A stretch of DNA of 64,000 nt. It comes from Sphingomonas edaphi. Its GTDB lineage: Bacteria > Pseudomonadota > Alphaproteobacteria > Sphingomonadales > Sphingomonadaceae. A program made the position numbers and the translations under genes. The DNA is taken from NCBI RefSeq assembly GCF_003583725.1, contig NZ_QXTF01000001.1, positions 62,001-126,000 of the forward strand. Direction: 5' to 3'. Below the pieces are notes generated by a model that saw only the letters and a program-made list of their open reading frames with translations, was not told the origin of the DNA and ran no database searches. Positions 52,393 through 54,532 of the stretch are shown here, piece by piece. Within the stretch, counting starts at the first letter, position 1. Every line of letters begins with the position of its first letter.

Positions 52393-52469
52393 GGCGGAGT
52401 AGCTCAGCTGGTTAGAGCAGCGGAATCATAATCCGCGTGTCGGGGGTTCAAGTCCCTCCTCCGCTACCA
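52393..52469 (+). tRNA. tRNA-Met (anticodon CAT, elongator type)
   Basis: Acceptor GGCGGAG (52393-52399) pairs with CTCCGCT (52459-52465) with a G1-T72 wobble, A73, CCA. Anticodon stem GCGGA/TCCGC around ATCATAA gives CAT. The lack of the initiator's three G-C pairs argues for elongator Met. A CAT tRNA-Ile with modified C34 is less likely from the body sequence. Confidence 0.9.
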
Positions 52470-52474
52470 TTCCA

Positions 52475-52840
52475 TCAACGCGAACCGCTATCGTTTGCGC
52501 TATCTCGCCGCCGCCAAGGCGCAACGCCTTCAATTTCAATTTCTAGGCTGAAGCTGAGTAGGGTACGGATCAGGACGATCAAGCCCAGTAGGCTGACGCT
52601 TTCCCAGGTCAGCGGCGCGGTGACGGTCGAAATGATGTCGGCGCCGACGAGGAACTCCAACCCCAGCAGGATTCCGCGGCCGAGGTTGGCGCGGTACTGG
52701 TCATAGGCGGCCTTTCGATCCCCGCCACGGAAGTCACGCGCGAAGATGAGGCTGGCGAGCAGCGATCCGGCGACGATGACGCCGACACCTGCCCATTCCA
52801 GAACGCGGGCAGCAATCTCCATCCAGCTCGCGGTTTCCAT
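52475..52840 (-). CDS. DUF1622 membrane protein
   Basis: A 121-aa protein (METASWMEIAARVLEWAGVGVIVAGSLLASL...) with two or three membrane spans, typical of DUF1622: GAGVGVIVAGS-type first helix, FARDF, then YRANLGRGILLGLEFLVGADII. Unknown function. The start at ATG 52840 is supported by GGAGGGG just before. It ends against the tRNA-Met gene. Confidence 0.85.
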   Translation of the reverse strand: METASWMEIAARVLEWAGVGVIVAGSLLASLIFARDFRGGDRKAAYDQYRANLGRGILLGLEFLVGADIISTVTAPLTWESVSLLGLIVLIRTLLSFSLEIEIEGVAPWRRRDSANDSGSR

Positions 52841-52894
52841 CGGACCCCTCCACCATTGGTGAAGCAATAGTTGGGCGGAATGGCCGTGCTTTGC

Positions 52895-52928
52895 CAAACA
52901 AAAACGCCCGGGCACATGGCCCGGGCGT
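52895..52928 (-). terminator. Strong Rho-independent terminator on the minus strand with no gene upstream
   Basis: ACGCCCGGGC (52904-52913) and GCCCGGGCGT (52919-52928) form a perfect 10-bp stem with a 5-base loop. Read on the minus strand it is followed by TTTTTGTTT. On the plus strand only CCTTTG follows. Since no minus-strand gene lies between 52929 and the next minus gene, it implies a transcript made from the 52929-53200 region. Confidence 0.8.
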
Positions 52929-53089
52929 CCTTTGCGTGACGATTGCTCGTCAGCCCCCTTGGAAGTTTCAATGCGCCTCACCCCCTGACGGGCGATTGGC
53001 ATCCTCCCCGGACTTCCGGCTAAAGCCTTGATCCGATGGGGCTTGGCTACGCCCGGCGGCCGCTGCCTGTCACCCCTAATTGCGCATTG
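52899..53089 (-). ncRNA. Candidate structured RNA, rod-like, with terminator
   Basis: On the minus strand, CAATGCGC (53089-53082) closes with GCGCATTG (52976-52969). Inside, TGAC-a-GG-ca-GCG pairs with CGCCCGTCA, GGCGT with ATGCC, CCCC with GGGG, CGGA with TCCG, ending in GGC-TTTA-GCC. This makes a bulged rod of about 121 nt. A GNRA hairpin (TGACGA-GCAA-TCGTCA) and the terminator follow, giving a ~190-nt transcript. The size and shape resemble 6S RNA, but I cannot confirm a family. It could instead be a proS leader on the plus strand. Confidence 0.4.
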
Positions 53090-53209
53090 CGGACACATTC
53101 TCCATCAAGCTGTTGCCAGCTGGCCACACGGGGACGGACGATTGCCATGCGGGTGACGCCTCTCTAGGACAACGCCGAAACGATCACTCAAGCTTCAGGA
53201 AAATCCCCC

Positions 53210-54532
53210 TTGCGCCTGTCCCGCTGCTTCCTGCCCGTGATGAAGGAAAGTCCGTCCGACGCCCAGATCGTCAGCCACAAGCTGATGCTCCGCGCAGGCC
53301 TCGTTCGCCAGACGGCGGCCGGCATCTATGCTTGGCTGCCAATCGGATGGCGGGTGTTGCAGAAGATCGGCCAGATCGTGCGGGAAGAGCAGGACCGCGC
53401 CGGCGCCATCGAGATGCTGATGCCGACGCTGCAGTCCGCAGACCTGTGGCGGCAGTCGGGTCGTTACGACGCCTACGGCCCTGAAATGCTGCGTATTAAG
53501 GATCGGCACGACCGCGACATGCTGTACGGTCCGACGAACGAAGAGATGATCACCGATCTCTTCCGGGGCGACGTCAAAAGCTATCGCGATCTGCCTCGCA
53601 CGCTTTATCACATCCAGTGGAAGTTCCGGGACGAGGTTCGCCCGCGCTTTGGCGTGATGCGCGGTCGCGAGTTCCTAATGAAGGACGCCTACAGCTTCGA
53701 CATTGATGAAGCGGGCGCTCGGAATAGCTACTACACGCAATTGCTGGCGTACCTGCGGACATTCCAGCGCCTCGGCATCCGCGCGGTGCCGATGAAGGCG
53801 GCAAGCGGCCCTATCGGCGGTGACCTCAGCCACGAATTTATTGTCCTTGCCCCGACAGGTGAGAGCGAAGTTTTCTATGACGCGGCCTTCGAGGAGTTCG
53901 ACTGGGCACAAGAGGCCCTATCCTATGACGATGCAGATGGGCTGAAGGCGCTATTCGAGAAGGTTAGTACGACATACTCCGCCACCGACGAGACGCATGA
54001 CGAGGCGAGGTGGGCCGAGGTGTCACCGGACCGTCGTCGTGAAGGCCGGGGAATTGAAGTCGGACACATCTTCTATTTCGGCGACAAATATTCTGCGTCG
54101 ATGGGGCTGAAGGTCTCGGGCCCTGACGGTTCGATGGTGACGCCGCAGATGGGCAGCTACGGTATTGGCGTGTCGCGCCTTGTGGGGGCGATCATCGAGG
54201 CGAGCCATGATGAGAATGGCATCGTTTGGCCGGAAACGGTCGCCCCGTGGAAAGTCGGACTGGTGACAATGCGCGGGGATGATGAAGCGTCGGTCCAGGC
54301 TGCAGAGGATATCTATAAAAAGCTGACCGCCGCGGGGATCGAAGTTCTCTACGACGACAGGGACGAACGAGGCGGGGTGAAGCTCGGCTCAATGGACCTC
54401 ATCGGCCTACCCTGGCAGCTGGTGATCGGGCCGCGGGGTCTTGCTCAAGGTGTAGTCGAGCTCAAATGCCGACGGACGGGAGAAAAGGTGGAACTTTCCA
54501 TCGATTCCGCGCTTGAGCGCCTCACCGCATGA
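53210..54532 (+). CDS. proS: Prolyl-tRNA synthetase (short form)
   Basis: Class II synthetase charging tRNA-Pro. 440 aa, the compact type lacking the INS editing domain. Motif 1 region [16 protein letters not shown], motif 2 [25 protein letters not shown] (about 143-167), motif 3 [13 protein letters not shown], then the anticodon domain. TTG 53210 begins the conserved [20 protein letters not shown] (TTG read as Met), with AGGA 8 bases upstream. Editing of Ala-tRNA-Pro would need a free-standing deacylase. Confidence 0.96.

Follow-up and report, generated by a model that had tools for sequence, protein, structure and literature searches.

The stretch of DNA analysed here, 64,000 nt long and called the window in what follows, contains a DUF1622 gene (52475-52840, minus strand; PF07784) and, some distance upstream of it, the proS gene (53210-54532, plus strand; Pfam tRNA-synt_2b and HGTP_anticodon), whose start codon is uncertain. 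Between these two genes, on the minus strand and divergent from proS, lies what looks like an unannotated structured sRNA gene with its own predicted promoter and terminator. The predicted gene body covers about 140 nt (52899-53040), its 5' end being placed from the -10 box and its 3' end from the terminator, and the DUF1622 gene lies outside this unit, about 60 nt downstream of the terminator. A tRNA gene with anticodon CAT (52393-52466, plus strand) was also observed immediately past the 3' end of the DUF1622 gene.

Two elements reported in the preliminary description were recovered on the minus strand. The intrinsic terminator (52899-52929) has a perfect 10-bp stem, ACGCCCGGGC/GCCCGGGCGT, at 52928-52904, followed by five T (52904-52900), and the GNRA hairpin TGACGA-GCAA-TCGTCA is found at 52952-52937, within a core hairpin GC-TGACGA-GCAA-TCGTCA-C-GC (52934-52954). 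A conserved motif of five G, CCAAGGGGGC (52953-52962; G5 motif), stands ahead of the core hairpin. It is preceded by a middle region (52969-53001) whose sequence differs among relatives and whose pairing is uncertain, with a second G run, TCAGGGGG, at 52988-52981, and by a G-rich segment, GAAGTCCGGGGAGGATGCCA (52997-53016), with complementarity to this genome's SuhB sRNA. Close to the predicted start, a 5' hairpin CGGA-TCAA-GGC-TTTA-GCC-GGAAG-TCCG (53009-53035) was predicted, with probabilities of 0.97-0.99 for the outer pairs; it is partly kept in seven relatives, and its 3' side probably corresponds to the GGCCRYGGTTCRGGGA block found in Sphingomonas.

Upstream of the RNA, a predicted -35 box GTGACA (53068-53073) and a weak predicted -10 box GTAGCC (53045-53050) are separated by 17 nt (GTGACA-N17-GTAGCC, 53073-53045), and both are conserved in alignment A2. 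Further upstream lies a conserved element TGTGGC-CAGCTG-GCAACA (53111-53128, minus strand; consensus TGTKGC-N6-NNNACA), a candidate operator for a transcription factor. On the opposite strand, promoter-like boxes of proS, ATTGCC-N17-CTAGGA (53141-53169), are likewise conserved in alignment A2 and are not part of the RNA gene; they stand between the RNA gene and proS. A plus-strand leader of proS, which the preliminary description had named as the finding that would speak against its proposal, was thus rejected. The intergenic position, together with the predicted promoter and intrinsic terminator, would fit a trans-acting sRNA gene.

The preliminary description had taken the 195-nt interval 52895-53089 as the RNA. 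A real RNA appears to lie inside it, with about 50 nt in excess at the 5' side. The minus-strand fold of this interval was more stable than expected (z -3.41; 1 of 200 dinucleotide shuffles equally good), and the plus strand was also unusually stable (z -2.86; 1 of 200 shuffles), so that the strand is not decided by fold stability alone. The predicted transcript (53042-52895) gave a z of -4.97, with none of 200 shuffles as good, and folded without the helix proposed to close a long rod. This rod, of about 121 nt and closed by CAATGCGC/GCGCATTG, does form in silico within the 195-nt interval, with a mean pair probability of 0.96. However, the predicted -35 box lies downstream of its 5' arm (53082-53089), and seven same-genus relatives retain between 3 and 7 of the 8 closing pairs, compared with 8/8 in the window, the upstream part of this alignment not being certain. 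The rod was therefore rejected, as its closing helix spans the predicted promoter and is not conserved.

Distribution and genomic homes of the RNA

By BLAST, the region matched 35 of 61 genomes, including 34 of the 37 from the same genus; the 35th match consisted of 28 bases in another genus and lay outside the RNA. The core GGGGG-Y-TGRCGA-loop-TCGTCACGC is nearly invariant in 30 genus loci, and a covariance model built from these 30 cores (R1), which matches the window at 52894-52966, found matches in 142 of the 396 genomes of the order, throughout in one family. In the loci examined, the RNA has one of two homes: in the first it is divergent from proS/lolC, and in the second it lies between a divergent hisI and a convergent comF. 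The hisI/comF form was recognised through weak R1 matches in other genera, and a second model (R2) was built from 23 hisI-type loci grouped by gene context. R2 matched 266 of the 396 genomes, 259 of them in the family and seven, weakly, in another family. When both models were combined, matches at E<=0.001 were found in 291/396 genomes, all in one family, a count that excludes these seven weak matches and for which the gene context was not examined genome by genome. As far as the comparison of sequences goes, the RNA family spans the Sphingomonadaceae, and the RNA of the window would be its local member.

All 30 genus loci have a divergent proS gene upstream of the RNA, and in five of them a DUF1622 gene was found beside it. 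A pattern scan of 84,980 species genomes returned at least 119 stretches, the 80 matches listed being mostly from Sphingomonas. Of the 119 stretches returned, 113 had a divergent proS (28) or lolC (85) gene 194-414 nt upstream. The other six were at contig edges (two) or had no neighbour gene or terminator (four, of which two were from Acidimicrobiales and Streptomyces). In some genera proS sits between the RNA and lolC, and in others lolC faces the RNA directly. When 29 further loci were aligned with R2, hisI and comF were present in 28 and lolC in one. Genes of both homes were never seen at one locus among those fetched, and eight lolC-type genomes searched again with R2 (E<=0.05) had no match at hisI. 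In one genome (G017), hisI is 6.4 kb from the proS-linked RNA (C1:2092269, 2098758), its top R2 match being elsewhere; this proximity is possibly a trace of the relation between the two homes.

Several observations connect the two forms. R2, which was trained on the hisI form alone, matched the RNA of the window at 52893-52990 with 39.6 bits (E 8.8e-9), compared with 17 bits for a match to the terminator only on the opposite strand. We also used a model of the hisI form that leaves out the terminator (R3); it is based on sequence alone, since RNAalifold detected no pairs common to the long hisI-type alignment (A7). On 91 lolC-type loci (438 kb), R3 gave six matches at E<=1, of which five were on the RNA and on the right strand (E 8.4e-5, 0.0038, 0.047, 0.065, and 0.11) and the sixth was a stray match; the remaining 86 of the 91 loci were without a match at this threshold. 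The signal shared by the two forms is thus faint at each locus, yet it falls at the expected place. In addition, the two forms have a 5' block in common: of 133 lolC-type pattern matches, 123 carry the motif GGTTCRGGG, allowing one mismatch, no more than 150 nt ahead of the core. The 49 hisI-type loci include 27 with an exact copy, eight with one mismatch, and seven in which nothing was found within two mismatches.

The control region was examined in the same way. Sixteen of the 30 genus loci had the promoter pattern [AGT]TGACA-N15-18-NTAR at the proper position, compared with an expectation of 0.002. So did 79 of 119 lolC-type rows, in which it began 53-65 nt ahead of the GGTTC block. The upstream element TGTKGC-N6-NNNACA was found in 112/119 lolC-type rows, 49/49 hisI-type loci, and 15/30 loci of the window's genus, against a background rate of 0.000-0.002 for each search window and for a pattern that was picked after the sequences had been inspected. 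This element is palindrome-like, 18 bp long, and present in both genomic homes as a candidate operator. The RNA is not tied to one neighbouring gene, as it has two homes and variable downstream genes. The RNA gene has thus moved along with this element, which would hardly be expected if it served any neighbour in cis, and what seems to be a self-contained unit with two alternative homes argues for action in trans.

Homologues divergent from proS-lolC were also found in two 2.1-Mb genomes, probably of Zymomonas, with a local G+C of 0.47 (L075 and L094); these loci have a similar layout and a promoter-like ATGACA-N17-TAGCCT. Outside the family, R1 matched 3 of 289 genomes class-wide (31-34 bits) and R2 matched 39 of 289, with up to 37.2 bits. 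Six of the best eight outside-family R2 loci also scored on the opposite strand, in a terminator-like manner, and none of these loci (L334-L341) had proS, lolC, hisI, or comF within 1.5 kb. The two probable Zymomonas members score in the same range, however (36.8 and 32.8 bits), so that there may be a true distant member among these outside loci. All outside-family matches of R1 and R2 were excluded from the member counts, and further weak matches with none of the four neighbour genes (L064-L066, L086-L089, L101, and L241-L243) were set aside. No match to the RNA was obtained in a plasmid collection.

Structure and covariation

Compensatory changes in relatives, a check proposed in the preliminary description, were found in the core hairpin and the terminator. 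Over 35 lolC-type sequences, 98.1% of the cells of these two elements were paired (97.6% in the core hairpin and 98.4% in the terminator) and 34 cells were double-changed. None of 500 shuffles reached any of the five measures used, and controls slid along the alignment were 27-44% paired. The covariation lies mostly in the terminator, where 8 of 11 pairs showed double changes; the core hairpin showed one U-A to A-U double change and, at a single pair, seven changes from A-U to G-U. The equivalent closing helix of the hisI form had a double change at one pair in 7 of 23 sequences. For this helix and the terminator taken together, the number of pairs with double changes was reached by 27 of 500 shuffles and the number of types by 2 of 500. 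Conservation, covariation, and promoter-like boxes of its own thus support the earlier proposal of an unannotated, terminator-bounded, and probably non-coding RNA on the minus strand.

The 5' part was folded less uniformly. The 5' hairpin was complete in 9 of 16 single folds of Sphingomonas RNAs, mostly together with a variable second hairpin, and its pairs in lolC-type RNAs were left uncounted because the sequence is so conserved. In the consensus fold of 80 lolC-type RNAs, from whose alignment (A9) a false row (L193) had been removed, the 5' hairpin was absent and the G5 motif was paired with a GCCCC in the middle region, a pairing that 63 to 75 of the 80 RNAs can form. The GGGGG itself is present in 30/30 genus rows and throughout the wider lolC-type alignment A8 (35/35 rows). 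For the window, the fold prediction pairs four of these five G with the predicted 5' end, a result that depends on the exact start, and CCGGGGAGGA was predicted to be paired inside the RNA, with an unpaired probability of 0.00-0.09. The G-rich motifs are thus conserved, yet these folds suggest that they may not be free.

Complementarity to SuhB

SuhB has been described in Sphingopyxis (PMC6563040) and was equated here with RF00519 by name. It was found in 13 of 14 family genomes tested, the same genomes that carry the new RNA, with the core GGCAUCCUCUCC in the SuhB loci read; the copy of the window's genome is at G000:C1:1045167-1045242. The new RNA is not itself a SuhB: it had no RF00519 match, it is longer, and the SuhB core is complementary to it, in one clade, rather than similar. 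In the window, GAAGTCCGGGGAGGATGCC and SuhB of the same genome gave a duplex energy of -29.4 kcal/mol, compared with -17.97 (sd 2.63) for shuffles, none of 1000 being as good; these duplex energies ignore the internal pairing of the RNA. When seven genomes of the window's clade were each tested with their own SuhB, 0, 0, 0, 8, 23, 26, and 394 of 1000 shuffles were as good, two further genomes (G003 and G225) having been dropped as they had no SuhB core.

This signal did not extend to the family. The 119 lolC-type RNAs showed no excess pairing with the generic SuhB core (mean z -0.05). In 16 genomes tested with their own SuhB, a set that omits the SuhB-bearing G278, which had no RNA locus entered, none of the nine from other genera than that of the window reached significance (best 21 of 300). 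In the clade itself, an RNA paired no better with its own SuhB than with a swapped one, as 3565 of 5040 permutations were as good. SuhB is patchy in the window's genus, with matches in 18 of 30 further genomes at E<=0.01 and in 3 of 30 above the cut-off; the 12 of 30 genomes with no match at E<=0.01 each carry the new RNA. A role as a SuhB sponge is thus not supported as a family-wide function, and SuhB would be a candidate partner for the clade of the window rather than a general one.

A precedent for such an interaction is CrfA of Caulobacter crescentus, which is reported to sponge the alphaR8 sRNAs SisA-D, with an anti-Shine-Dalgarno core, through a G/A-rich loop (PMC12559287). The likeness, which was drawn from the description of CrfA, lies in a G/A-rich segment that could pair with the core of an anti-Shine-Dalgarno-type sRNA, here GGGGAGGAUGCC against GGCAUCCUCUCC in the window's clade. 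Unlike CrfA, the pairing is clade-specific in our data, and the accessible segment expected of a CrfA-type sponge was not found in the window RNA folded without Hfq or a partner, CCGGGGAGGA being paired. We consider it improbable that the RNA is a dedicated family-wide sponge for SuhB-type anti-Shine-Dalgarno sRNAs whose pairing is too short to be detected outside the clade. The results in six of the seven clade genomes (at most 26 of 1000 shuffles), the presence of SuhB in nearly all family genomes tested, and CrfA itself speak for it. Against it are the lack of a signal in Sphingomonas and hisI-type genomes, the 12 genus genomes that have the RNA without a SuhB match, and the predicted pairing of the complementary segment. 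If the link to SuhB holds, the RNA would join CrfA as the second alphaproteobacterial example of titration of such sRNAs.

Possible mode of action

Our tentative explanation, to which we give somewhat less than an even chance, is a self-contained sRNA gene acting in trans, most likely through base-pairing of its conserved G-rich segments. The gene unit would consist of an upstream operator, a promoter, a structured RNA of about 140 nt, and an intrinsic terminator. Once transcribed, the RNA would act in trans, and the GGGGA after the 5' block and the AAGGGGG before the core hairpin would pair with C/U-rich RNA, either mRNA leaders or sRNAs of the anti-Shine-Dalgarno type. These segments would first need to be freed from internal pairs. 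In the window's clade, the first G-rich segment may titrate SuhB or be titrated by it. In agreement with a role of G-rich segments, runs of at least four G numbered 2.21 on average in 119 lolC-type RNAs, against 0.36 runs of C, and 1.81 in 36 hisI-type RNAs, although two of the G motifs had served to select these sets. The 119 lolC-type rows used for the SuhB, G-run, and upstream-element counts include L193 and, for at least one locus (L203), a second, probably spurious match. Against this explanation stand the weak -10 box, a promoter pattern seen in 16 of the 30 genus loci, and a number of covarying pairs in the closing helix and terminator of the hisI form that 27 of 500 shuffles matched. 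Moreover, the fold predictions pair the G-rich motifs, which lowers the odds of both the base-pairing and the SuhB readings.

Action in trans is likely, and base-pairing through the G-rich motifs is its most probable form, the main rival being a protein partner. CsrB sequesters the protein CsrA, and the G-rich stretches of the new RNA might sequester an RNA-binding protein in a similar manner. The same mean numbers of G runs would suit such a role, as would the fact that GGTTCRGGG and G5 are conserved in sequence although no pairing partner was found across the family. However, there is no candidate protein, the number and spacing of the G runs vary, and a strongly complementary RNA exists in the window's clade. 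We regard protein binding as rather unlikely, even though it is the best of the alternatives. That the RNA acts in cis, as a leader or attenuator of the DUF1622 gene that follows it, was suggested by the same strand and by a start about 60 nt past the terminator in the window, but that gene adjoins the RNA in five of 30 same-genus loci and hisI-type loci have the convergent comF downstream. This possibility was thus rejected as largely refuted, and we give it hardly any weight.

The size, the terminator, the presence throughout the family, and an apparently single copy per genome could also be those of 6S RNA or another housekeeping RNA in a divergent form, and the preliminary description had compared the candidate with 6S RNA (RF00013). 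The likeness is limited to the size class and the terminator, and the long rod with an open-promoter-like central bubble that marks 6S RNA is not supported here, given the position and poor conservation of the closing helix. When the window was scanned with Rfam at gathering scores, four tRNAs and nothing else were reported. No family reached its gathering score for the candidate, and the 6S model had no match in the window. The same genome has a 6S match elsewhere (G000:C1:373646-373798; 47.3 bits, narrowly over the cut-off of 46.4), which shares a few bases with the start of an ORF taken to be 5-formyltetrahydrofolate cyclo-ligase. The gene for this enzyme is the usual neighbour of 6S RNA. 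The identity with 6S RNA was thus rejected. In a permissive search, the best match of the candidate was SorX (RF02784; 23.9 bits against a gathering score of 46.6, E 0.002), a weak similarity that lies largely in the terminator, the 5' part being different. When L082, L227, L075, and L067, four members from elsewhere in the family, were searched at E<=0.1, a single match was obtained, to an Enterococcus sRNA (27.7/100 bits). As the matches outside the family are all weak, and the best of them lack all four neighbour genes, we consider a divergent housekeeping RNA very unlikely.

For a trans-acting, base-pairing RNA, a wider role can be imagined. As a hub in all Sphingomonadaceae, an apparently single-copy gene that moves with its operator between two addresses would provide several G-rich segments that titrate C/U-rich regulatory RNAs such as SuhB. 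We hold this extension to be rather improbable; if it were true, one RNA would set the activity of the anti-Shine-Dalgarno sRNAs of the cell. A structured RNA that most genomes of the family have retained, along with a conserved control element of its own, likely matters to the cell, and few regulatory RNAs of sphingomonads have been described. Sphingomonads are known pollutant degraders and, in a wide sense, include the ethanol producer Zymomonas.

The RNA family is new relative to Rfam 15 and the open papers surveyed. In these open-access texts, SuhB and the Zms set were the only sphingomonad sRNAs encountered. The Zms sRNAs have been described in Zymomonas mobilis (PMC6970203 and PMC7064620) and were considered here by their coordinates, by which none was matched to the new RNA, although one of them may be its counterpart. 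A homologue of the new RNA is present, divergent from proS-lolC, in the two probable Zymomonas genomes. The RNAs at these two loci (L075 and L094) carry three G-rich motifs, namely CAGGGGGATTGG or CAAGGGGGATTGG, TTCGGGGGGAAG, and AAGGGGGTTGACG.
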